Source: Planctomycetota bacterium | Lineage (GTDB): Bacteria > Planctomycetota > Planctomycetia > Pirellulales > UBA1268 | Direction of reading: 5' to 3' | DNA: 32,457 nucleotides | Assembly: GCA_027592945.1 (NCBI GenBank) | Contig: JAQCJP010000008.1 | Location: forward strand, 1 to 32,457 | Shown here: positions 7,630 to 22,017 of the stretch, piece by piece | Layout: every line of letters begins with the position of its first letter | Numbering within the stretch: the stretch's first letter is position 1 | Position numbers and translations under genes: made by a program | The notes under the pieces: model-generated | Database searches by the model: none | The model's input: the letters and a program-made list of their open reading frames with translations, nothing else | Told to the model about the DNA's origin: nothing

Positions 7630-9927
7630 CTACACGAGCCCCCATTTCTTCCGCAGGTACCATTCGGCGATCATCGCACCAGCCAGGAGCAGGAGCATCG
7701 GCCAGGTGTCCCAGGGAGAGAGCGACCATTGCTTCCTGCTTTCGTAGACGGCCGGCTGCTCCCCAAGTTCCGTGAAGATCGCCGGCAGTTCCTCAGGCAG
7801 CCGCGGCCCCCCGCCGGTGGCCTGGGCGAGCTGCCGCATCAAAAGGGGATTGGCACGAGGATTGGCAAGCTCCAAGTCCTGACGGAAAACCGTGAACCGA
7901 GCTGATGCCTCGCGCGGTTCGGTCCCGGCCGGTTCGCGAGTTCGCACCGTCAGCAGCCAATCCCCGGGTTCGGCAGCATCGCTAATGGTGCCTGCCACGG
8001 TCTCGCCCGCTCGCACGAGCCGGATGCCCCGTGACTCCCCTTGCGGCGAGACCAGTTCGGCCTCGAGCAGCACATCGAGGCGGGCCTCGCCGTTGGGGCC
8101 GGTGACTCCCGCGTCGAACTCCAGCGGCGTGCCCGGTGAGATCCGCCGCTGGGCCAGCCGCACCCAGATGCTATCAGCTTCGGCCCCGTCCTTGCGGGCC
8201 AGCCAGAGCACCAGCTGCCGCCAGAATCTTCGATGTGCCTGGTCCGCGCCCTGCATGACCCATCGCCAGGTGGAATCCGCGGCGAAGGCCAGCACCCGCC
8301 CCACACCGTATTCACGGGCCACCAGCAAGGGCCGGCCATCCGGCGTGTTTGCCAGCGGCTTGGTAACCGGGAGCAGCCGGCCCAGCCGATTCGCGCCGGC
8401 GAGCGAGGGGAGCTTCTCCCAGGCGGCGCGGTTTTCTTCAGGCTTGCTGTCGAGCCGGAGAATCGAAATGCCTCCAAACCGATCGTCCGGCCGCATCCTG
8501 AGCGGCCCCTTGTAATGGAGGCTCTCGCGGACCGGCTCCCCAAACGGCTGCCGCAACAGCCGGTCAGCCTCGAAGGGCATCAACGGCCCCAGCGCTGAAC
8601 TCGCCCAGCCACCGGCCTCGAAGGCGTGGAACCCGCCGAGGAGGCCGATTCCGGCCCCCTGTGAAACCCGCCCCAGGATCGTCTCCAGGTCTGCGGGCCG
8701 CAGGGCCGAGGAATCGAGGTCACCGATCAGGTAGACGTCGTATTCCTCCTTCAGGGTCCGGGAGAGGTCGACGGGCCACCCGTCACGACGACTCGAATCA
8801 ATCCATTGGAAATCGACCTGGATGTCGGGGCTGGCTGCCAGCACCCGCCGCAGGAACCTCTGCTCGACCCGCAGGGCACCCTCCAGAAACAGCACCCGCA
8901 GCCCGCCCTCAACGACGTTCACGAACGTGGTCAGCTGGTTGTTGGTGAGCACCACCTCACCCTCCTGGGGCTCCACGCTCAGGACCAGTTTCCGCTCCCC
9001 GTTCTCCCGGGGCGTCCATTCCAGGCTCACTGGCTGCTCGTCGGCCTCGCCGGCTGCCTGCACCGTCGTGCGAGCCACCTCCTCCAGTTCACCGGCGTCA
9101 TTTTCAACCCGGAGCACGACGGCCGCGATCTGGCCGGCAAGCCCCTCGAGTCGCACCCGACCCGCCACCTCCAGGCGGTTCTCCCGATAGACCGTCTCGG
9201 CCACCGCAAGGTTGGTGATCGCCGCATCCCGCCCCTGGCTGCCACTTCGCTGCCGGCCAAAGGTGACGCTCCAGACAGCCGCGCCGGCGTCGGCCACGTT
9301 CCGGGCGGCCGTCTGGGGGGGCAGATCCCGCGGGGCATAGGCGTGCTGGGCTCCGTCGCTGAGGACGATGACCCCGCCAATTCGGCGACCGGCGTTTCTG
9401 CGGAGCGCCTCGTCGACCGCGGCCCCAATCGCTGTCTCGTCTGCCGTCGCCGCGTCTTCCCAGTCGCCCAGAGCCAATGGGTCGTCGTCATCCCCGGCCC
9501 GCGGATGCAGCTCGCGGTCGAAGGTCAAGGTCGTCAGGACAAAGTCGCCCCGGGCGAGGAGTTCCTCAGCCGCCGGCCGGGCGGCCTCGACGGCTGCGGT
9601 CATCTCCTCCCAGCGGCTTCGCCCCCCACTGCCATCGGCCACGGTCATGCTCTCTGAGGCATCCGCGAGGAGAATCACGACTGTCTCCTCCCGGGATTTA
9701 CGGGTCGAGACGAGCGTGGGCCGCAGCAGACAGGCCACCAGCGCCAGAAAGGCCACGAGCCTCAACCCCACGAGCGTCCAACGCCGGCCAGGACCTACCC
9801 GCGTGCGGTCGGGAGGGAACGCCAGCAGCACGGCGGCCAGCAGGCTCGCCACCATGATCACCAGCAGCCACGAACCGACCGGTTCAAACTGGACGCTCAG
9901 TTCCTCCAGCCAGGTGGTGTCGGTCAT
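7630..9927 (-). CDS. Membrane VWA/glutamine-amidotransferase-like protein of the BatA/MoxR gene cluster
   Basis: N-terminal TMs, VVILLADASESMTVADGSGG MIDAS-like motif, GATase1-like region, C-terminal TM; ATGA overlap with upstream gene at 9924-9927. Confidence 0.75.
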   Translation of the reverse strand: MTDTTWLEELSVQFEPVGSWLLVIMVASLLAAVLLAFPPDRTRVGPGRRWTLVGLRLVAFLALVACLLRPTLVSTRKSREETVVILLADASESMTVADGSGGRSRWEEMTAAVEAARPAAEELLARGDFVLTTLTFDRELHPRAGDDDDPLALGDWEDAATADETAIGAAVDEALRRNAGRRIGGVIVLSDGAQHAYAPRDLPPQTAARNVADAGAAVWSVTFGRQRSGSQGRDAAITNLAVAETVYRENRLEVAGRVRLEGLAGQIAAVVLRVENDAGELEEVARTTVQAAGEADEQPVSLEWTPRENGERKLVLSVEPQEGEVVLTNNQLTTFVNVVEGGLRVLFLEGALRVEQRFLRRVLAASPDIQVDFQWIDSSRRDGWPVDLSRTLKEEYDVYLIGDLDSSALRPADLETILGRVSQGAGIGLLGGFHAFEAGGWASSALGPLMPFEADRLLRQPFGEPVRESLHYKGPLRMRPDDRFGGISILRLDSKPEENRAAWEKLPSLAGANRLGRLLPVTKPLANTPDGRPLLVAREYGVGRVLAFAADSTWRWVMQGADQAHRRFWRQLVLWLARKDGAEADSIWVRLAQRRISPGTPLEFDAGVTGPNGEARLDVLLEAELVSPQGESRGIRLVRAGETVAGTISDAAEPGDWLLTVRTREPAGTEPREASARFTVFRQDLELANPRANPLLMRQLAQATGGGPRLPEELPAIFTELGEQPAVYESRKQWSLSPWDTWPMLLLLAGAMIAEWYLRKKWGLV

Positions 9928-12374
9928 GCCGGCGTCCTCGGGACAGGTGGCGGTCCGGAGGGGGGCGTCGCGGGCGGGCTGCTTCGTGAGGCCGCCGCGG
10001 ACGACGAGGCGGGCCATGCGTCGGCAACTGCTGCCAACGGCTCATCGGCCAGTTCGCCGAATTCGGCCGCGGCGGTGGTCTCGTCCACCTCAGGCCGCGG
10101 CCGATAGAAGCGATTGGCGACGATCCAGTCCGCAGCCATGGCTGCCGCCGCCAGGAGGATCGTCCAGCCGAAAAGTTCGGCACCGATTCGTTCCAGTTTG
10201 AGATCGCGGACAATCTCTTCCGCGGTACGGGCCATCCGCCGATCAGCCCCCAGCACGGCTACCAGATCATTGTCGGACAGCCGCTGGAAATCGGTCGCGG
10301 CTGGTTCGAGATTGACACTGAATCCATCGCTGACGCCATCTGCCTCGCCCCCGGCCTGGACCTTGTAGTTGCCGGGCGTCAGCGTTGCGGTGATGGTCAC
10401 GGAGCCCCGGGACCGGTCGATGGCTACCGGAAACGTGTCACCGCTGGGAGCCCGAACCAGGGCCGTGGGAAGATCCCGCCGCCCCAGGGAGAGCGTGGCC
10501 GGGCTGCCTGGAAACAGGTTGCGGTCGTCGGGGGTATCGATCGCGTGCAGCAACGTCTCGTTGGCGAGGATCAGGAATGGCCAGGGCTCGAAGCCCGTCG
10601 CCAGCGTGTTCCACTCTCCGGGATCACCGGCCACCCGCGAGACCGGTGTCGTGACCACCACCACCGTCCCCTGCCCGACGCGGTGCTCGAGGATCGCCGG
10701 CAGACCGTTCCGGTACGAGGCGACCACCGTGGCCGGGCTGCTGCGCGGGTCTTCCCCTGGTTCGTCGGCGTCACGTCCTAGGGCCGCAAACTCCCAGTGC
10801 CTGGTCACCGGAAAATCCTGCCAGGGGACGGCATCGCCGACTCTCCGAAAGGTCGCCATGACAGGATGGTCGAGGCGGGCCGGGGCCAGAAAGTTGTCGC
10901 CTGCCGGACTCCGCCAGACTCGCACCAGGTCGCCGCCCAGCACGGCCCGCGAGGCCACCGAGTTGAAGCCCGCCGCGTTACCTGCCGCCGGCCCGAGCCA
11001 GACGACCAGCCCCCGCCCCGGCGCGATCCAGTCGGCCAGCGCCTCCCAGACTCGGGGCTCGAGCGGGGGCGGATCGAGGAGCACGATGCCTTGGGCCGTC
11101 TGCCAGTCAGTGGCATCAAGCCTCGCGTAATCGACCACCTCGGGCAGGAACCGTGCCGCGCCGGTTCGCCGAAGGGCCATCGGCGCAAGTGCCTCCGTCA
11201 GGAGCGCGGCGTTGCGGGTGGCGGGAGCGGCTGCCGCCACGATGACCCGCGTCGCCGACCCAACCACGACGGTAAACGAGCGGACGTCATCGGCGGCCAG
11301 GTCGTCCGTGCCGTCCAGCACGATCCGTCCCTGCCTCACGCCGGGCCGGAGGCCACCGAGTTCAAAGGCAATCGTCGCCGGTCGGCCCACCGGCACCTCA
11401 ACTGGCTTGATGCCCCGTCGCACGTAGCGACCATCTTCGCCCAGGACTTCAATGGCGACCGGCCGGCTGCCCCCGTCCTCCGTGCTGCTGACCGTGGCTG
11501 CCACAACCAGGGACGTACCCGCCGCCACCCGATCGGCGGACAGCTCAATCTGTTCGATCGCAAAGTTTCGCGGGGCCTCTGCTCCGACATCGACAAACAA
11601 CACGCTCGGCTCGCCCGGCAGCCGCCCCTGCTCGACTGGGTCAGCGGCAGCGACCGTGGCTACGGGCTCGCTCCCCGCGTCACCGCCCACGCTCTCCCCG
11701 GCTGCGGCGTCATCACCGACGTCACCCTCGCCCGGCTCGGCCCGACGTTGCCGCCTCGGGCTTCCTTCCCAGCCGCCCCGGGAGCAGTCGGTGAAGACAT
11801 ACAACTCCCGGTGCTCGCGATCGGCAGTCTGCAAGAGCCGCTTCGCCTCGGCGATCGCGTCGGTGAGTGTGGCAACGGGAGTCTCAGCGGCAAGCCGATC
11901 GAGGCGCATCTGAACCGCTGCCGGCGTGGGGAGGAAGGCTGCTGGTGTGCCCGCGGTATCGAGGAGTGCCACGTCACTGCCCGGGGGCAGCTTGTCGAGC
12001 AGCACCCGGGCCAACGAGACTGCCCGCTCGAGTCGGGTCTCGTTGCCCTGCCGCAGCACCATACGAGGCGCCGTGTCAAAGACAAGCGCCGCCGCCACCG
12101 GCGCCTCCGCCCCCGGCAGCCAGCCGGCGCCTCGCAGAACAGGCCGGGCCAGAGAAATCGCCAGAAGCACGAGGGCGGCCATCCGCAGCATCAGCAAAAG
12201 CAGGTGATTGAGCTGCAGCCGGCGACGATTGGCAACGGCTCGCTGCTGCAGAAAGCGGAGGGCCGGGAAGTCGTGCGGGACCGGGTTCCGCCGCATCACC
12301 ATATGGAGGATGATCGGGGCAGCCACCAGGGCGGCGCCCCCGAGCAGCAGCGGCGAGAGAAATGAGAATCCCAT
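9924..12374 (-). CDS. BatA (aerotolerance regulator N-terminal) domain membrane protein
   Basis: N-terminus MGFSFLSPLLLGGAALVAAPIILHMVMRRNPVPHDFPALRFL is typical of the BatA N-terminal domain; VWA-like and GATase-like regions follow. Confidence 0.82.
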   Translation of the reverse strand: MGFSFLSPLLLGGAALVAAPIILHMVMRRNPVPHDFPALRFLQQRAVANRRRLQLNHLLLLMLRMAALVLLAISLARPVLRGAGWLPGAEAPVAAALVFDTAPRMVLRQGNETRLERAVSLARVLLDKLPPGSDVALLDTAGTPAAFLPTPAAVQMRLDRLAAETPVATLTDAIAEAKRLLQTADREHRELYVFTDCSRGGWEGSPRRQRRAEPGEGDVGDDAAAGESVGGDAGSEPVATVAAADPVEQGRLPGEPSVLFVDVGAEAPRNFAIEQIELSADRVAAGTSLVVAATVSSTEDGGSRPVAIEVLGEDGRYVRRGIKPVEVPVGRPATIAFELGGLRPGVRQGRIVLDGTDDLAADDVRSFTVVVGSATRVIVAAAAPATRNAALLTEALAPMALRRTGAARFLPEVVDYARLDATDWQTAQGIVLLDPPPLEPRVWEALADWIAPGRGLVVWLGPAAGNAAGFNSVASRAVLGGDLVRVWRSPAGDNFLAPARLDHPVMATFRRVGDAVPWQDFPVTRHWEFAALGRDADEPGEDPRSSPATVVASYRNGLPAILEHRVGQGTVVVVTTPVSRVAGDPGEWNTLATGFEPWPFLILANETLLHAIDTPDDRNLFPGSPATLSLGRRDLPTALVRAPSGDTFPVAIDRSRGSVTITATLTPGNYKVQAGGEADGVSDGFSVNLEPAATDFQRLSDNDLVAVLGADRRMARTAEEIVRDLKLERIGAELFGWTILLAAAAMAADWIVANRFYRPRPEVDETTAAAEFGELADEPLAAVADAWPASSSAAASRSSPPATPPSGPPPVPRTPA

Positions 12375-12377
12375 CGC

Positions 12378-13280
<903 letters not shown>

Positions 13281-13292
13281 CGCTCACACCTC

Positions 13293-13373
13293 AAAAAGGG
13301 GACATTCTGCTTTTTCGTGCACGCTGCGTCGCACTCCTGGCGGGCTCCTGAAAAAGCAGAATGTCCCCTTTTT
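13293..13373. repeat. REP-like hairpin: 24-bp perfect inverted repeat with 33-nt loop
   Basis: AAAAAGGGGACATTCTGCTTTTTC (13293-13316) and GAAAAAGCAGAATGTCCCCTTTTT (13350-13373). Confidence 0.9.
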
Positions 13374-14395
13374 TATCTCGCGAACTTGGGGATCTCGGGC
13401 TCCGGGGTCTCGGCCACGAGCCGCTCGATGATCGACTCGCTGGTCAGACCCTCGGCCTGGGCCTGGAAGTTGGTGGCGATCCGATGCCGCAGCACCGGTA
13501 CCGCCACCCGCTTGACGTCGTCGATCGAGACACTGAACCGGCCATCCATCGCGGCCACCGCCTTCCCTCCCTGAATCAGGAACTGGCCCGCCCGTGGGCC
13601 CGCCCCCCAGTCCACCAGCTGGGCGACATAGGGCGGGGCTTCGGCCGCCTTCGGACGCGTCGCCCTGACCAGACCGGCCACGTACTTCACGATGTATTCG
13701 CTGACGGCTACGCTGCCAACGACCTTCTGAATGTTGACGATCGCCCGAGCAGAGAGAACCTTACGGACCTCCGGCCGCTCTGGCCGGGTGGTCGCCATCA
13801 GAATCTGCTCCTCCTCGCTCGCGGAGGGATACCCAACCTTGATGTTGAACATGAATCGGTCGAGTTGCGCTTCGGGCAGCGGATAGGTGCCTTCTTGTTC
13901 GATCGGATTCTGGGTGGCGATCGTGAAGAAGGGCTCCGGCAGCTTGTAGGTTTCCTGCCCGACCGAAACCTCCCGCTCCTGCATCGCCTGAAGCAGGGCG
14001 GCCTGCGTCTTGGGGGGCGTGCGGTTGATCTCGTCGGCCAGGAGAATGTTTGTGAAGATCGGCCCCTCGACGAACCGGAAAACTCGTTTGCCTGATTCAT
14101 CGTCGAGAACATTCGTCCCGGTGATATCGGAGGGCATCAGGTCGGGAGTGAACTGCACCCGCTTGAAGCCGACATCGAGAATCCGGGCGAGCGTCGAGAC
14201 CATCAGCGTCTTGGCCAGCCCGGGAACGCCCTCGAGCAGGCAATGCCCGCGAGTGAAGATGGCGGCAAACAACTGCTCGATGACATCGGCCTGGCCGACG
14301 ATCACCTTCTGAAGTTCCTCCTGCATCAGCCGCCGATGCTGGGCAAACTCCTGGAGCACATCGTCGAGCGTCTTGGGGCGGGCTGCAGTGGACAC
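13373..14395 (-). CDS. MoxR-family AAA+ ATPase
   Basis: LLEGVPGLAKT Walker A, DEINRTPPKTQAALLQAMQE, ATQNPIEQEGTYPLPEAQLDRF. Confidence 0.95.
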   Translation of the reverse strand: MSTAARPKTLDDVLQEFAQHRRLMQEELQKVIVGQADVIEQLFAAIFTRGHCLLEGVPGLAKTLMVSTLARILDVGFKRVQFTPDLMPSDITGTNVLDDESGKRVFRFVEGPIFTNILLADEINRTPPKTQAALLQAMQEREVSVGQETYKLPEPFFTIATQNPIEQEGTYPLPEAQLDRFMFNIKVGYPSASEEEQILMATTRPERPEVRKVLSARAIVNIQKVVGSVAVSEYIVKYVAGLVRATRPKAAEAPPYVAQLVDWGAGPRAGQFLIQGGKAVAAMDGRFSVSIDDVKRVAVPVLRHRIATNFQAQAEGLTSESIIERLVAETPEPEIPKFAR

Positions 14396-14420
14396 GCCGG
14401 GAAACCTCCCTGTCGGGAAA

Positions 14421-14460
14421 ATACTGGCGGAAAACCGCCAGTATCGGCCCTTGGGGGCCG
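14421..14460. promoter_or_regulatory. Two adjacent perfect hairpins/palindromes in the divergent moxR / DUF4159 upstream region
   Basis: ATACTGGCGG-AAAA-CCGCCAGTAT (14421-14444) followed by CGGCCC-TTGG-GGGCCG (14445-14460). Confidence 0.5.
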
Positions 14461-14556
14461 GGCGGCAAACCGACGGCGCCGCTCCCGACGATTTTGAGAC
14501 GTTTGAGATGCCCCTTCTCCGGGCCTTCGCCCCGTCCGGGACAACAGCCTGCTACC

Positions 14557-17055
14557 ATGGAACTCCTCGTGCGTCCTCGAGAAGATCAACTGATGCCGCG
14601 GCCTCTTCCCGCTTCTTCCGAGACACACCCGCGGCAGCGGTTGCTGACCCGGAGGCTGCTTCGTGATCGGCGAGGCAAGTCTTTCCTGCGCACCGCTTCG
14701 CTTCGGGCGATCGGACTTCTGACCCTCGCCATTCCGCTGATCGTGATGCGGTGCCCCGCTGCGGAACCGATCGCCCCGGGCGATATCCAACGGGCAATCG
14801 AGCGGGCCCGGGAGTTCCTCGTTCGTCAGCAGCAACGGGAGGGCTACTGGGAGGCGATGCACGCCGCTGACAAGCGGGTGGGGGCCACCGGCCTCGTGCT
14901 GCTGGCCTTGGCCAATGCCGGCCTCGATGCCGATCACGCGGCCGTTCGCAAGGGACTCGACTGGCTGCGGGCCCAGGAGCCCGACCAGACGTATCACGTT
15001 TCCCTGCAGACGCTGGCCCTGGCAATGCTCTCCCCCGAGAAGGACGCGGCTATTCTTGGCCGGAATGTCGCCTGGCTCGAAGCCGCCCAGATTCAGGGGG
15101 GGCCAGCCGCCGGCTCGTGGACCTACAAGGCGGGCGACCGAGGCACCGGTGACAACTCCAACACCCAGTTCGCCCTGCTGGCTCTCCACGAAGCATCCCG
15201 AGCGGGGCTGCGGGTCCGCCCGGAGACGTGGCTGCGATCGCAGCAGTACTGGGTGAGCTGTGCCAACGCCGATGGCTCATGGGGCTATTCAGGCCGTGCG
15301 CCCGGCACCGGCAGCATGACCTGCGCAGGCATCGCCAGCATTTGGATCACCTCGGAGCATGTCGGCACCCCCGACGCCCAGGCGGGCCAGGGGGCGGTTT
15401 CCTGCTGCGGCGGCGGCCGCTCGCCGCGGGTCTTGGAGCGGGGCCTCGACTGGCTGGGCCGCCGCTTCAGCGTCACCCAAAACCCCGGCACCGGTGGAGA
15501 CACCTGGCTCTACTACTACCTCTACGCCCTCGAGCGAGTGGGGCGGTTCACGGCCCGGCGCTACATCGGCGATCACGACTGGTACCGCGAGGGCGCGAGG
15601 ATGTTCATCGACGCCCAGGATCGGCTCAGCGGCCAGTTCAAGGCTCGGCGGATCGAAGATGAGGTGGTGGCGACGAGCTTTGCTCTTCTTTTTCTGGCCA
15701 AGGGACGCCGGCCGGTGATCGTCGCCAAGAGCCGCCACGGCCCAGAAGACGACTGGAACCGCCACGGCCACGATGTGGCCCATCTCGTGGCTCATGTGGA
15801 ACGCCGCTGGAGGAGTGACTATCCGGCCGGCCTGTCGTGGCACGTCCTCGACACACCTACCGCCAGTCATGCCGACCTGATGCAGGCGCCGGTCTTTTGG
15901 CTTTCAGGCAAAGTGCTCTTCAATCTCGGGCCCGACGCCGGCCCGCGACTCCGAAAGTACATCGACGAGGGAGGCTTCATCTTCGCCGAAGCCTGCTGCC
16001 CCCGCAGCGGAGAGTTCGACCGTCGTCTGCGGCAGCTGGTGGGAGAGATTTTCCCCGAGCCTGAGTACCAGCTCCGGCTGCTGCCCCCCGAACACCCCGC
16101 CTGGCATGCCGAGGAACTCGTGCCCCCCGAACTCCACCGACCGCTGTTGGGCGTGGAGTACGGCTGCCGCACCTGCATGATCTATGCACCCCCCACCGAT
16201 CTCGATCCTCAGGCGACCGCCGTTCCCAGCCTCTCCTGTCTCTGGGAACTGGGGGGTGAGGCTCGGGAGGAGCTGCCCCCCGCCATTCGCCGTGAGGTCG
16301 CAGCAGCCCTTGCCATCGGGGCCAACGTGCTCGCCTACGCGACCAATCGGGAGGTCAAACGGAAGGACGAACTGTTCGACATTCCGCTCGAGGAGGCCGG
16401 CCCAGCCGATGAGGTCGAGCGGGGGCAGTTGGCGATCGGCAAACTCCGGCATGCGGGCATGTGTGACGCCGCTCCAGCCGCCTTGGCAAACATCCTCCGG
16501 GCCGCCGCCCGGGAGACCGGGATTCGCGTCGACGACACCCCGAGCCTGATCGATCCAGGCGACGACGCGATCTTCGAATATCACCTCGTCTTCATGCACG
16601 GCCGGCAGGGCTTCGCCTTCGACCCGCCACGGCGGACGCAGCTGGCCACCTTCCTGGAACGCGGCGGCACGCTCCTGGCCGACAGCATCTGTGCCGCTCC
16701 GGCCTTCACCGCCGCCTTCCGCCGGGAGATCGCGGAAATCTTCCCGGGCAAGCCGTTGGAGGAGATCCCGGCGAACGATCCCATCTTCACGGCCGCCGAA
16801 TACGGCGGCTACGACGTCCGCAATGTCACGCTCCGCGAGCCGGCCGCCGGTGACGGCCCGCTCGAAGTCCGCAAGCGACGGGGCCCGCCCAAGCTCCAGG
16901 GAATCAGGCTCGGGGATCGCTGGGCGGTGATTTTCTCGCCCTACGATCTGTCGTGCGCGCTTGAGAAGCAGAACTCGATGGAGTGCTCTGGCTATGACCG
17001 AGACGACGCCGAGAAGATCGCCCTCAATGTCTTGCTCTACTCGCTCAATCAATAG
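14557..17055 (+). CDS. Prenyltransferase/squalene-cyclase-like toroid repeats fused to DUF4159 region(s)
   Basis: N-terminal repeats (ATGLVLLALANAGLDADHAAVRKGLDWLR); DUF4159-like APVFWLSGKVLFNLGPDAGPRLRKYIDEGGFIFAEACC and a second similar block LATFLERGGTLLADSICAAP...; start ambiguous (14494, 14557 or 14593). Confidence 0.8.
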   Translation: MELLVRPREDQLMPRPLPASSETHPRQRLLTRRLLRDRRGKSFLRTASLRAIGLLTLAIPLIVMRCPAAEPIAPGDIQRAIERAREFLVRQQQREGYWEAMHAADKRVGATGLVLLALANAGLDADHAAVRKGLDWLRAQEPDQTYHVSLQTLALAMLSPEKDAAILGRNVAWLEAAQIQGGPAAGSWTYKAGDRGTGDNSNTQFALLALHEASRAGLRVRPETWLRSQQYWVSCANADGSWGYSGRAPGTGSMTCAGIASIWITSEHVGTPDAQAGQGAVSCCGGGRSPRVLERGLDWLGRRFSVTQNPGTGGDTWLYYYLYALERVGRFTARRYIGDHDWYREGARMFIDAQDRLSGQFKARRIEDEVVATSFALLFLAKGRRPVIVAKSRHGPEDDWNRHGHDVAHLVAHVERRWRSDYPAGLSWHVLDTPTASHADLMQAPVFWLSGKVLFNLGPDAGPRLRKYIDEGGFIFAEACCPRSGEFDRRLRQLVGEIFPEPEYQLRLLPPEHPAWHAEELVPPELHRPLLGVEYGCRTCMIYAPPTDLDPQATAVPSLSCLWELGGEAREELPPAIRREVAAALAIGANVLAYATNREVKRKDELFDIPLEEAGPADEVERGQLAIGKLRHAGMCDAAPAALANILRAAARETGIRVDDTPSLIDPGDDAIFEYHLVFMHGRQGFAFDPPRRTQLATFLERGGTLLADSICAAPAFTAAFRREIAEIFPGKPLEEIPANDPIFTAAEYGGYDVRNVTLREPAAGDGPLEVRKRRGPPKLQGIRLGDRWAVIFSPYDLSCALEKQNSMECSGYDRDDAEKIALNVLLYSLNQ

Positions 17056-17096
17056 GCCCGCGCCGCGGCGGACAGCAGGTGCGAGTGCCTTCCTGC

Positions 17097-17786
17097 CTAG
17101 TCGTTGTTGGAACCGGTCAGGTAGCTCGCGTAGTAGAGAAGCGTCAGCACGCTCTGGAGCGTGCCGGCCACGTAGGTCCAGGCAGCGGCGTTGAGGACGG
17201 CGTTGACCGCCCCCATGTCAGCCGCCGGCACGATCCCAAGATCGACCAGCTGGGCCTTGGCTCGGTTGCTGGCGTCGATCTCAACCGGCAGATTGACCAG
17301 CTGGAAAAAGACCGTGCCGCCAAACAGAATCAGCCCCAGCCAGGCGACCGACTGGAGGGCCATCGCCAGCCCGATCATGAAGACAAACAGCCCCAGGCCG
17401 CTCCCAAAACCGGCCACCCCGACCGCCGCATTGCGAACAGCCATCAGCGAATAGTTCGTGGCATCCTGGAGGGCGTGCCCGGCCTCATGGGCCGCGATCC
17501 CCACGGCCGCCAGCGAGCGGGAGCCGTAGACATCCTGGGAGAGCCGCAGCACCTTCGTCCGCGGGTCGTAATGGTCGGTCAGATGGCCGCCAACCGGTTC
17601 AATCGCCACATCGACCGCCCCGGCCGAATCGAGGATGGGGCGGGCCGCCGCCGCTCCGGAGAGGGGTGCCGGCTCGCGGGCCGCCGCCGCGAACGTGGAG
17701 CGGACCTTCCACTGGGCCCACATCGCCAGCAGGATCGCCGGGGCGACCCAGATCAGGTAACGAGGATCAAAGAAGAAAAAAGGCAT
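17097..17786 (-). CDS. Neutral zinc metallopeptidase, YugP family
   Basis: HEAGH motif in AVGIAAHEAGHALQDA, multiple TM segments, N-terminus MPFFFFDPRYLIWVAPAILLAMWAQ. Confidence 0.92.
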   Translation of the reverse strand: MPFFFFDPRYLIWVAPAILLAMWAQWKVRSTFAAAAREPAPLSGAAAARPILDSAGAVDVAIEPVGGHLTDHYDPRTKVLRLSQDVYGSRSLAAVGIAAHEAGHALQDATNYSLMAVRNAAVGVAGFGSGLGLFVFMIGLAMALQSVAWLGLILFGGTVFFQLVNLPVEIDASNRAKAQLVDLGIVPAADMGAVNAVLNAAAWTYVAGTLQSVLTLLYYASYLTGSNND

Positions 17787-17870
17787 GGCTCGTCCTCCGT
17801 GTCCGCAGCGGAAACCTCGCCCGCTGCTGCAGCACGTTAATCAGGAACTATTCTAGAAGGTCGGCGGCCG

Positions 17871-19103
17871 TTGTCCGGCCGGTCCGACCCGATCGGTACA
17901 GCCATGTTCTACGCATCTCAGCCCCGCCCGGTTCACCCGTGGCAGGAAACGCCCCGCCCCTCTCGCCCGACAGGCTTCCTGACCGGCCTGGCCGTGGCGT
18001 TCCTGCTGCTGCCCGGCTGCGGGCCGCAGCCGACCCAGGACACGGGCACCAGTCCGCTTCCCGACCAGGCCACCCTCTGCAGGCGGATCGAATTGGCTCT
18101 GACCGGCGTCCGCGAGGCCCGTCGACTCGACGCGACGGTTCAAGGTGCCTGGCAGGTCGTGCATGGCATCCTCGCCTTTGGCAGCGAACTGCCCCTTGCC
18201 CACGACGGCGAGGTCTCTCCGGCAGTCGATTATCTGCTCGGTGGCGGCCGGATCACGGGCTGGCGGCTGCGGCCGGGCGATGCTGGCGTGGTCGCGATCG
18301 TCGAGGAGGGCAGCACGCTGGGACAGGGCCATCCCGACCAGTGGCTCGGCTATCTGTCGCAGTGCGGGATCGCGGCGGAGGGCGACTCCCCCGTCGGCGG
18401 CCTGCCCCTCTCCACGCCTCTGCTGATCGGGGCACAGCAATACACCCTCGAAGATCTTCTATCCCAGGCGCTTCATGACATCCGCCCCGGCCAGGAGAGT
18501 TCCTGGACGCTGATGGCGCTGGCGGCCTATCTGCCGCCCGACGCCTCCTGGGACGCTGGTGACGGCCGACGGTGGACCACCGAAGACGTGGTCCGAATGG
18601 AGGCGAAGGCCGATATCCTCGGGGCAGCCTGCGGCGGAACGCACCGGCTCTACGGTCTGGCGGCCGCCGTGCGTGCCTATCGCACTCTGCATCCTGAGGG
18701 CCCGCCCCCGGACAGCGGCTGGGCGGCAGCGGAGGAGGTGCTCGCCGACTGCATTGATCGGGCTCGTCGCTACCAGCAGCCCGATGGAAGTTTTTCTGTG
18801 CACTATTTTGAACGGCCCGGCGCGTCGCCCGATGTCTTTGCGACGCTCGGGTCAACGGGGCACACCTTCGAGATTCTGGCGCTCGTGCTCGGCCCCGCGG
18901 AACTCCGCCAGCCCTGGGTGACGCGGGCCGCCGAGCGGCTCGTCAGCATGCTCGAACGGACGGCCGACATCGACGTCGAATGCGGCGGGCTCTACCACGC
19001 CGCTCACGGCCTGGCGATCTACCGTCGTCGTCTCTGCGGCGATGATTCGGCGACCCTGGGCAGGGCTGACAGCCCCTTGCTTTGCCAAGCCGGCCGGCAG
19101 TGA
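17871..19103 (+). CDS. Predicted lipoprotein with alpha/alpha-toroid-like repeats, function unknown
   Basis: Signal peptide with lipobox-like LLPGC; recurring motifs GGTHRLYGL, QPDGSFS, GSTGHTFEILAL, CGGLYHAAHGLAIY; alternative start at 17904. Confidence 0.65.
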   Translation: MSGRSDPIGTAMFYASQPRPVHPWQETPRPSRPTGFLTGLAVAFLLLPGCGPQPTQDTGTSPLPDQATLCRRIELALTGVREARRLDATVQGAWQVVHGILAFGSELPLAHDGEVSPAVDYLLGGGRITGWRLRPGDAGVVAIVEEGSTLGQGHPDQWLGYLSQCGIAAEGDSPVGGLPLSTPLLIGAQQYTLEDLLSQALHDIRPGQESSWTLMALAAYLPPDASWDAGDGRRWTTEDVVRMEAKADILGAACGGTHRLYGLAAAVRAYRTLHPEGPPPDSGWAAAEEVLADCIDRARRYQQPDGSFSVHYFERPGASPDVFATLGSTGHTFEILALVLGPAELRQPWVTRAAERLVSMLERTADIDVECGGLYHAAHGLAIYRRRLCGDDSATLGRADSPLLCQAGRQ

Positions 19104-19145: not shown

Positions 19146-20678
19146 ATGACCCATACCGTGCACGGGCTGATTTTTTTCTACATCCAGAAGTTTGCCGACT
19201 CGCTCTCGGTCGGCCGTTCATCGGTCTCGGCGGCTGCCGGGATTTCGGGGGCCGCGAGGAATGAGCGGGGTCGCTACCTGCCCTCCGGCGTCTACTCTGA
19301 CGCCGAAGCCGTCGCCCTGCTCGAATCGATCGCCGAAACACGCGGGGAGCCGCTCGGGGAGACCGCGACCAGTTTTGGGGAGTTTCTGGCGCCCCACCTC
19401 GTCAAAGTGGCCGGCAGCCTGGTCGATCCGGCCTGGCGGACGCTCGACCTCATCGAGCATACCGAGGAACTGATTCACGCGATGGTGCGGACGACCCAGC
19501 CCGGGGCCGAGCCGCCGGTGCTCGAGGCGGTGCGGGTGGGCCCGCAGGAACTTCACCTCGTCTACAGCTCCCGCCGGCGGCTCTGCCCGCTGGCCATCGG
19601 TCTCGTCAAGGGGCTCGCCCGACACTACGGCGACACCGTTGAGATCGAGCAGCCGAGTTGCATGCTGCAGGATGACCCGTTTTGCTCCTTTGTGATCCGG
19701 GTGGCCGGCAACGAGACCCAGGCCTCCCACTCGCCGCTCTGCGAGACGGTCGTCTTGCCGCCGGGAGCCGCCGCCTCGGCCGCTGCGATGCTCTCCGATC
19801 CCGGGCTCCTGCCCGATGACTCCGGCCCCAGCGACGACCCGCTGCCCGATCGGATCGGCGGCCACCGAGTTCTCGGGCTGATCGGAGCGGGCGCCATGGG
19901 CCGGGTCTACCTGGCCCACGACGAACAACTCGACCGGCGGGTGGCGATCAAGGTGATGAACCGGAGTCGGGCTCGCGATCCCGGCGCGCGGCAGCGATTC
20001 CTGCGGGAGGGGCGAGCTGCAGCCGCCGTGGAGCATCCGCACGTGCTCGCCATCCATGCAGTCGGTGAGGAAGACGGCCTCCCCTACATCGTCATGCAAC
20101 TGCTCGACGGGACGACGCTCGCGGCCCATCTGGCCGCCAGCGGACCGCCACCGCTCGCCGAGGTCTTGCGGGTTGGCCGGGAGATCGCCGAGGGGCTGGT
20201 GGCCGCTCACGCCCGGGGTCTCGTCCATCGCGACATCAAGCCCGACAACATTTTCCTGGAGGGTGTCGACCGGCGGGTCCGGATCATCGACTTCGGCCTG
20301 GCGCGGGCAGCCGAGGACGACACCGCAAAGCTCACCGTCGAGGGGGCTGTCGTGGGCACGCCCGCCTACATGCCGCCGGAGCGGATCGGCGAGGAGTCCC
20401 TCGATGCCAAGAGCGACCTCTTCGGCCTCGGCGTAATGCTTTATGAAATGCTCGCCGGCCGGCTTCCCTTCGACGGCAACTCGATGGTGGCGATGCTGGC
20501 CTCGATTGCCCGGGGCAGCCCGCTGCCGCTGCCGAAAGCGGCGCCGGCGACCCCGCCGGAGGTCTGCGACCTGGTGATGCAACTGATGGCACACCGCAAG
20601 GAGGATCGCCCGGCCGATGCCCGCAGCGTCGCGGCCGAGCTCGGCCGGCTGGAGCGACGCTTCGGCAGCCCCGGCTGA
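19146..20678 (+). CDS. Ser/Thr protein kinase (Hanks type) with N-terminal H-NOX/HNOB-like heme-binding domain
   Basis: aa 1-~187: H-NOX-like with candidate proximal His111 (LIHAMVRTTQPGAEPP) and YxSxR (Y140-S142-R144); aa ~238-510 kinase: GAGAMGRVY, VAIKVM, HRDIKPDN, DFGLA, GTPAYMPPE; no TM segment apparent. Confidence 0.88.
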   Translation: MTHTVHGLIFFYIQKFADSLSVGRSSVSAAAGISGAARNERGRYLPSGVYSDAEAVALLESIAETRGEPLGETATSFGEFLAPHLVKVAGSLVDPAWRTLDLIEHTEELIHAMVRTTQPGAEPPVLEAVRVGPQELHLVYSSRRRLCPLAIGLVKGLARHYGDTVEIEQPSCMLQDDPFCSFVIRVAGNETQASHSPLCETVVLPPGAAASAAAMLSDPGLLPDDSGPSDDPLPDRIGGHRVLGLIGAGAMGRVYLAHDEQLDRRVAIKVMNRSRARDPGARQRFLREGRAAAAVEHPHVLAIHAVGEEDGLPYIVMQLLDGTTLAAHLAASGPPPLAEVLRVGREIAEGLVAAHARGLVHRDIKPDNIFLEGVDRRVRIIDFGLARAAEDDTAKLTVEGAVVGTPAYMPPERIGEESLDAKSDLFGLGVMLYEMLAGRLPFDGNSMVAMLASIARGSPLPLPKAAPATPPEVCDLVMQLMAHRKEDRPADARSVAAELGRLERRFGSPG

Positions 20679-20682
20679 TCGG

Positions 20683-22017
20683 TCATCCGGCCGCGGTTCC
20701 TGCCAGCCGCTCCCGCACCGCCGCGACGAGCGTGGCGATATCGCCCTGCCAGTCGATCGTCGCGGCCGTCTGGGCGGCCATGTCCTTGAACTGGGCGGTG
20801 CCGCCCTTGAACTCATCGCTGCCGATCACCAAGGCCGCCGGGATTCCCCGCTTGTCGGCAAGCTTGAGCTGCTGGCCGAGCTTTCTGGGCTCGGGGAAAA
20901 ACTCGACGGCGATCCCCGCCTGCCGAAGGGCGGCAGCGATCGCCAGGTAGTCGTTCACATGGGCCGGATCGAAGTGGGCCAGAAACAGCTCGGCCGGCGT
21001 CTCGCGGGCCGGCGCCTGACCGAGTTCCTCGAGCCCGGCCAGCAGCCGGTCGATCCCCAGCGACGCCCCCACGCCCGGCAGCGGCTGCTTGGTGTAGAGC
21101 CCGGCAAGATTGTCGTAGCGGCCGCCGGAGCAGACGCTGCCGAGCGACGGAAGCTCGTCGAGAAAACTCTCAAGCACGATCCCCGTGTAGTAGTCGAGCC
21201 CGCGGGCAATTCCCGGGTCGATCACCAGCCGACCGGACGGCACGCCGGCCGCTTGGGCCCCAGCCACGATCCCCTCGAGGGCCGCCACCCCAGCCCCACC
21301 CCGCCCTTCTCCCGCCAGGTCGGCCAGCCGGGGGAGCACCTCCGCGTTCGGGCCGGTCAGTTGGGCCATCTCCAGAAGCGTCGTCGTCGCCGCCTCGGCC
21401 ACCCCCTGCTCCGCCAATTCGGCAGCCACCTTTTCGGGCCCTGCCTTGGCGAGTTTGTCGAGGCTCCGCAAAACGCCGGTGGCCTGCCCGGCCAGGCCCA
21501 GCCGTTCGAGGATTCCGGCCAGGACCCGCCGATCGTTGATCCGGATCGTGAACCGCTCCAGGCCGATGGCGGCCAGGAGGTCGTGGACGACCAGCACCAT
21601 CTCGAGATCGGCCACGGGGCTGGTCGTGCCGATCGTGTCGAAGTCGCACTGCATGAACTCGCGGTAGCGGCCCCGCTGGGTGTTCTCACCCCGCCAGACC
21701 GTCGCCATGTGATACCGCTTGAACGGCAGGCCTAGTTCGTGGGCATGCTGGGCGGCGAAGCGGGCGAAGGGCACGGTCAGGTCGAACCGCATCCCGACCT
21801 CCCGGCCGCCGTGATCGACGAACCGGTAGAGCTGCTTGTCGGTCTCGTCGCTGCCCTTGCCGGTGAGGACCTCGAGGTATTCAAGCGCCGGCGTGTCGAT
21901 CGGCGCGAAGGCGTAGGAGCGGTAGATCCGGCGGGCCACCTCGAGCAGCCGCTCCCGGGCCAGGGCCTGCGCCGGCAGATGGTCGCGAAACCCCTTGAGC
22001 GTGCGTGGCTGGATCAT
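20683..22017 (-). CDS. hisS: Histidyl-tRNA synthetase
   Basis: Class II motifs: GMRFDLTVPFARF, KRYHMATVWRGENTQRGRYREFMQCDFD, DPGIARGLDYYTG, GGRYDNL, GASLGIDRL. Confidence 0.96.
   Translation of the reverse strand: MIQPRTLKGFRDHLPAQALARERLLEVARRIYRSYAFAPIDTPALEYLEVLTGKGSDETDKQLYRFVDHGGREVGMRFDLTVPFARFAAQHAHELGLPFKRYHMATVWRGENTQRGRYREFMQCDFDTIGTTSPVADLEMVLVVHDLLAAIGLERFTIRINDRRVLAGILERLGLAGQATGVLRSLDKLAKAGPEKVAAELAEQGVAEAATTTLLEMAQLTGPNAEVLPRLADLAGEGRGGAGVAALEGIVAGAQAAGVPSGRLVIDPGIARGLDYYTGIVLESFLDELPSLGSVCSGGRYDNLAGLYTKQPLPGVGASLGIDRLLAGLEELGQAPARETPAELFLAHFDPAHVNDYLAIAAALRQAGIAVEFFPEPRKLGQQLKLADKRGIPAALVIGSDEFKGGTAQFKDMAAQTAATIDWQGDIATLVAAVRERLAGTAAG

Follow-up and report, generated by a model that had tools for sequence, protein, structure and literature searches.

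Known H-NOX proteins act on histidine kinases, on diguanylate cyclases/phosphodiesterases or, as fusions, within MCPs (PMC8738867, PMC12329717), and Acanthamoeba possesses H-NOX proteins without linkage to a cyclase (PMC4053784). The NO-type pocket and the distal tyrosine rule for the ligand choice of H-NOX proteins have been described (PMC12329717). In a subset of H-NOX proteins, Cys139, Cys164 and Cys172 (numbering of Shewanella oneidensis H-NOX) are zinc ligands together with a His or Gln as the fourth (PMC7108781). Oxidation of the cysteines switches on the heme-free H-NOX of Vibrio cholerae in vitro (PMC7108781) and likewise acts in the H-NOX of Caulobacter (PMC12329717).

With regard to kinases, a survey from 2009 reported that HNOBA, a different domain, accompanies the kinase-like regions found in receptor cyclases (PMC2754085), and a 2024 survey of planctomycete kinases distinguished 105 accessory domain groups, its text naming neither HNOB nor haem (PMC11032199). 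A published description of an H-NOX-Ser/Thr kinase was not found in the literature, and the supplements of the latter survey may list the architecture. The protein presented here appears to join two well-known modules in a combination so far undescribed, which sequence databases may list automatically.

The window, i.e. the whole stretch of DNA that was analysed, comprises 32,457 nucleotides from a Planctomycetota bacterium of the order Pirellulales. One of its genes encodes a protein (P0001) which, as we consider probable, is a soluble cytoplasmic Ser/Thr kinase under the control, in cis, of NO bound to the haem of its H-NOX sensor. Its features, in which So and Tt denote the H-NOX proteins of S. 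oneidensis and T. tengcongensis, are:

19158..20678, + strand: gene for the H-NOX-Ser/Thr kinase fusion, with GTG as the preferred start instead of ATG 19146
19158..19697, + strand: H-NOX domain (HNOB), P0001 aa 5-184 (about aa 5-186), from Pfam HNOB, AF2 and Foldseek
19476..19478, + strand: His111, predicted proximal haem ligand, invariant in 36/36 aligned fusions
19563..19577, + strand: Tyr140-x-Ser142-x-Arg144, haem-propionate motif, invariant in the aligned fusions
19584..19586, + strand: Cys147, predicted Zn/redox ligand (So Cys139), by alignment (PMC7108781)
19590..19592, + strand: Leu149, at the position of the O2-stabilising Tt Tyr140, NO-type distal pocket, by alignment with Tt H-NOX
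19650..19652, + strand: Gln169, at So His161 (fourth Zn ligand), by alignment (PMC7108781)
19659..19661, + strand: Cys172, predicted Zn/redox ligand (So Cys164), by alignment
19683..19685, + strand: Cys180, predicted Zn/redox ligand (So Cys172), by alignment
19704..19853, + strand: linker of low confidence (aa 187-236) holding a conserved SPLxET-like motif, tentative because this region aligns only weakly
19872..20615, + strand: Hanks-type Ser/Thr kinase domain (Pfam aa 243-490), from Pkinase and Foldseek to PknB

The open reading frame of 510 aa (19146-20678, + strand) contains no internal stops. The original prediction had taken ATG 19146 as the start, whereas GTG 19158 is likely the true one, because H-NOX proteins open with Met-x-Gly and the conserved N-terminus of the relatives reads [M/V]HG. 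P0001 residue numbers would therefore be 4 too high; those of the original prediction, counted from ATG 19146, are kept throughout. A 19-residue hydropathy scan of the full protein predicted no transmembrane segment (maximum 1.39), in line with what had been read from the letters, and a membrane receptor was thereby ruled out. Likewise, a chimeric assembly or a chance joining of reading frames was ruled out, since dozens of separate genomes show the identical architecture. The genome from which the window is taken has a single HNOB match.

The original prediction had named an HMM search and a structure prediction as its checks, and a missing HNOB profile or fold match as grounds for giving it up. 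Both matches are present. PF07700 matches aa 7-169 with E=7.5e-21 and 75.2 bits, compared with a curated cut-off of 25.5, and the closest solved structures by sequence are the Shewanella oneidensis H-NOX 4u99 (E=6e-12) followed by the Nostoc H-NOX. The H-NOX part alone was modelled by AF2 with a pLDDT of 88.7, aa 21-44 being divergent and of low confidence, and in Foldseek this model reached a TM of 0.87 to 4u99, all top matches being H-NOX. The identity of the region formerly delimited as aa 101-187 is thus upheld, while its extent has to be widened to about aa 5-186.

The haem-contacting residues were placed correctly from the outset. After the identity of the reference sequence to 1u4h had been confirmed, the proximal His as well as the Tyr, Ser and Arg were all found to align with T. 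tengcongensis H-NOX, His111 corresponding to Tt His102. The O2-type subgroup is ruled out because Tt Tyr140 is replaced by Leu149, a substitution that the original prediction had not noted; nearly all fusions have a hydrophobic residue at this site, in most cases Leu. The glycines G78 and G152, invariant as well, lie within one residue of the hinge glycines described for V. cholerae H-NOX. A set that had been overlooked consists of C147, C172 and C180, invariant in all 36 aligned fusions; together with Q169 these residues show, by sequence alignment, the three cysteines plus His/Gln of the zinc/redox H-NOX subgroup. Zinc binding is nevertheless a prediction only, because most relatives have Glu in place of Gln169 at the fourth-ligand position.

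The C-terminal half matches Pkinase (aa 243-490) above the curated cut-off with E=2.2e-47, and its best Foldseek matches are mycobacterial PknB structures with a TMt of about 0.9. The motifs VAIK (Lys269), HRD (361-363) and DFG (382-384) are intact, as originally claimed, and invariant in 36 relatives. The PknB/PASTA model NF033483 covers the kinase part only and yields 264.7 bits against a cut-off of 450; of the marks of PknB/PASTA kinases, neither a transmembrane helix, nor PASTA domains, nor a score above this cut-off was found in the protein. In the full-length AlphaFold2 model, built from an alignment of 36 fused relatives (mean pLDDT 84.7), the linker is of low confidence and the relative placement of the H-NOX and kinase domains is poorly defined (pTM 0.60). 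Thr201 of the linker (19746-19748) is aligned in 36/36 fusions, tentatively as the alignment is weak there, and the SPLxET-like motif that holds it is a possible phospho-acceptor or docking site.

HNOB was matched in 45 of the 72 genomes of the window's family (21/34 when good-quality genomes are considered), nearly always in frames of about 500-590 aa, a length that accommodates a kinase. In the family loci that were fetched the kinase domain follows the H-NOX in the same frame, and HNOB and Pkinase were both matched by Pfam in 36/36 aligned fusions. At a mean column identity of 51%, the invariant residues of the H-NOX half include H111, P123, Y140, S142, R144, G78, G152, C147, C172 and C180, and those of the kinase half G247, G249, G252, K269, E288, H361-R362-D363, K365, N368 and D382-F383-G384. 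Fusions also occur in other families of the Pirellulales. The search for HNOB+Pkinase across planctomycetes, which the original prediction had proposed, has returned the architecture from dozens of genomes.

In a sample of the phylum HNOB was found in 42/392 genomes, mostly as standalone genes. Outside the Pirellulales, fusions were found in the genome G044 (OFTM393; three genes) and, in divergent form, in the genome G107. A multi-phylum scan with one peptide pattern, a weak negative, gave no kinase fusions outside Planctomycetota. The divergent protein of G107 (L118:2996-4999, - strand) combines a kinase and TPR repeats with an H-NOX-like domain (HNOB E=3e-11) that is without the proximal His, YxSxR and the cysteines. 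It is likely a haem-free descendant, and its loss of these residues shows that their invariance in the other fusions is not automatic. Longer planctomycete frames with a C-terminal H-NOX were also noticed (L113, 467 aa; L121, 321 aa; L114, 687 aa), the N-terminal parts of which have no Pfam match. Furthermore, a Vicinamibacteria MAG carries two standalone H-NOX genes of the three-cysteine subgroup in tandem (L126:1303-2426, + strand).

In the H-NOX tree all Pirellulales fusions form one branch (58 rows, SH-aLRT 98), its two seemingly standalone members being a gene cut off at a contig end and one with a broken frame. The G044 fusions are placed close to three-cysteine H-NOX proteins that stand alone in other phyla, and in the kinase tree their kinases nest within G044's own huge kinase expansion. 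A single clade of the Pirellulales fused kinases was not rejected (p=0.688), whereas one origin for all H-NOX-kinase fusions was rejected with the OFTM393/G044 kinases included (AU p=0.0148). The fusion arose once in the Pirellulales and independently in another planctomycete lineage, i.e. at least twice, and the combination of sensor and kinase was therefore favoured more than once. The G044 genome has at least 150 kinases (150 matches scored of 1047 first-look candidates), many of them very long proteins and three of them carrying H-NOX.

The fusion gene has a conserved neighbourhood:

14494..17055, + strand: DUF4159 protein, conserved upstream (Pfam DUF4159 E=1.5e-53; synteny)
17079..17840, + strand: conserved upstream neighbour, family not assigned (synteny)
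17871..19103, + strand: predicted lipoprotein, conserved upstream neighbour
20683..22017, - strand: HisS (histidyl-tRNA synthetase), conserved convergent neighbour (profile match; synteny)

The lipoprotein gene was present in 32/39 family loci, always on the same strand and 6-480 bp upstream of the fusion, the DUF4159 gene in 28/39 and HisS in 27/39, all of these counts being limited by contig ends. The lipoprotein (17871-19103) had no match in Pfam, NCBIfam or PDB. The DUF4159 gene and the two upstream genes are kept with the H-NOX-kinase across the family, and a set of MoxR AAA ATPase, DUF58 and BatA is oriented divergently from them (window 7630-17055). This linkage to the MoxR/BatA/DUF4159 set suggests a functional tie. 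A histidine kinase adjoining the H-NOX gene, as in H-NOX/HnoK pairs, is absent, the neighbours being the predicted lipoprotein and HisS; the histidine kinase of the window lies about 12 kb from the fusion gene.

Six relatives have no HNOB, and in them HisS directly adjoins the lipoprotein gene. In a further locus (L263:2568-3804, - strand) a decaying H-NOX-kinase lies between these two genes, what is left of its two halves standing in different frames. No case of one half kept alone at the locus was seen among the six lacking genomes and the decayed L263. Because of the six empty sites and the breakage of both halves in L263, sensor and kinase are seen to be absent or to decay together, as expected of one dispensable working unit.

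The following course of events would fit the residues observed. Haem b would be bound via His111, with its propionates held by Tyr140, Ser142 and Arg144. The pocket, made non-polar by the Leu, would admit NO to the ferrous haem and disfavour O2, a selectivity expected from established H-NOX work. NO would then break the His-Fe bond and, as in characterised H-NOX proteins, the two subdomains would turn about G78 and G152. The flexible linker may relay this movement to the RD-type kinase and so alter self- and target phosphorylation, in a direction that is not predictable. Oxidation at a zinc site of C147/C172/C180 could act on the same switch, and cysteine oxidation is possibly an additional gate of the kinase. 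In this way a single protein could convert the sensing of gas or redox state straight into phosphorylation of proteins. The wider proposal that NO on the haem and oxidation of the Zn-cysteines both gate one soluble kinase, possibly acting on the MoxR-DUF58-BatA/DUF4159 envelope system, is a doubtful one.

We favour gating in cis by NO because HNOB and Pkinase occur together in all fusions with their haem and kinase residues invariant at 51% identity, because H-NOX and PknB folds are combined with a Leu at Tt Tyr140 and no transmembrane segment, and because the fusion is kept in most family members, has evolved at least twice and, where absent at this locus, is absent as a whole. The protein might instead be mainly a redox sensor, in which zinc on Cys147/Cys172/Cys180/Gln169 is the switch and oxidation drives the kinase, the haem being secondary or absent. 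The three cysteines are present without exception in the aligned fusions, almost no other planctomycete H-NOX has them, and they match the So residues of the subgroup in which oxidation activates the heme-free V. cholerae protein (PMC7108781) and also acts in Caulobacter (PMC12329717). The haem His and YxSxR are however equally invariant, and a haem-free role would not need them. In addition, L118, the sole kinase fusion without haem residues, is separate and divergent and has no cysteines either, the Glu of most relatives makes zinc binding uncertain, and the cysteines are also common to standalone H-NOX relatives of other phyla and may reflect common descent instead of a tie to the kinase. 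We regard a mainly redox-sensing role as rather unlikely.

That the H-NOX half is a docking or dimerisation module, with kinase activity independent of ligand or redox state, would agree with the weakly predicted domain arrangement (pTM 0.60), with the protein-protein contacts by which H-NOX proteins are known to act, and with L118, where an H-NOX-like domain is still fused to a kinase after loss of the haem residues. An argument against this is that the haem-contact residues do not vary in either of the two independent fusions, and such a role seems quite improbable. As to the ligand, a BatA ("aerotolerance") protein in the neighbouring cluster might point to O2 or CO rather than NO as the physiological one. 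In the same direction, copper nitrite reductase was not matched in the genome of the window, and no match exceeded the cut-off in 297 Pirellulales genomes, so that an endogenous source of NO is not evident, and local NO production by this enzyme was rejected. The Tyr needed for stable O2 binding in H-NOX of anaerobes (PMC12329717) is however replaced by Leu in this protein and by a hydrophobic residue in almost every relative, and O2 or CO seems very improbable.

If gating by NO holds true, eukaryote-like phosphorylation joins the outputs of NO sensing, by a direct route from NO to Ser/Thr phosphorylation without second messenger or histidine kinase, and a candidate input signal is supplied for one orphan kinase among the many that planctomycetes possess. 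The fusion would also be a compact single-chain system in which to study how an enzyme is driven by movement of the H-NOX domain, a problem of long standing in work on soluble guanylate cyclase.

Compared with known systems, the protein shares the kinase fold and motifs of PknB-kind Hanks kinases, its best Foldseek matches; PknB however has a transmembrane helix and a PASTA sensor, in place of which an H-NOX input without transmembrane segment is found here. HRI, the haem-regulated eIF2alpha kinase, is a eukaryotic Ser/Thr kinase under a haem-containing N-terminal region, its haem domain being unrelated to H-NOX. PknG of M. tuberculosis is likewise a Ser/Thr kinase and soluble; the module at its N-terminus is redox-sensitive and binds metal (PMC5667593) but is rubredoxin-like and not an H-NOX. 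In the beta1 subunit of animal soluble guanylate cyclase an H-NOX with an NO-type pocket is likewise covalently joined to a catalytic output, which is however cGMP, produced through HNOBA/coiled-coil and cyclase domains without a kinase. H-NOX-MCP proteins of the T. tengcongensis type also use H-NOX as an input domain in cis, but they sit in the membrane, have the Tyr for O2 binding and serve chemotaxis, whereas the protein of the window is soluble, has Leu at this position and has a kinase as output. The H-NOX-HnoK systems of Shewanella oneidensis and Vibrio cholerae share the H-NOX fold, the proximal His, YxSxR, the NO-type pocket and the three-cysteine zinc motif, and in them, too, the sensor is paired with a kinase, the coupling being a predicted one in our protein; their separate H-NOX acts in trans on a histidine kinase, whereas in the present protein H-NOX and a Ser/Thr kinase form one chain.
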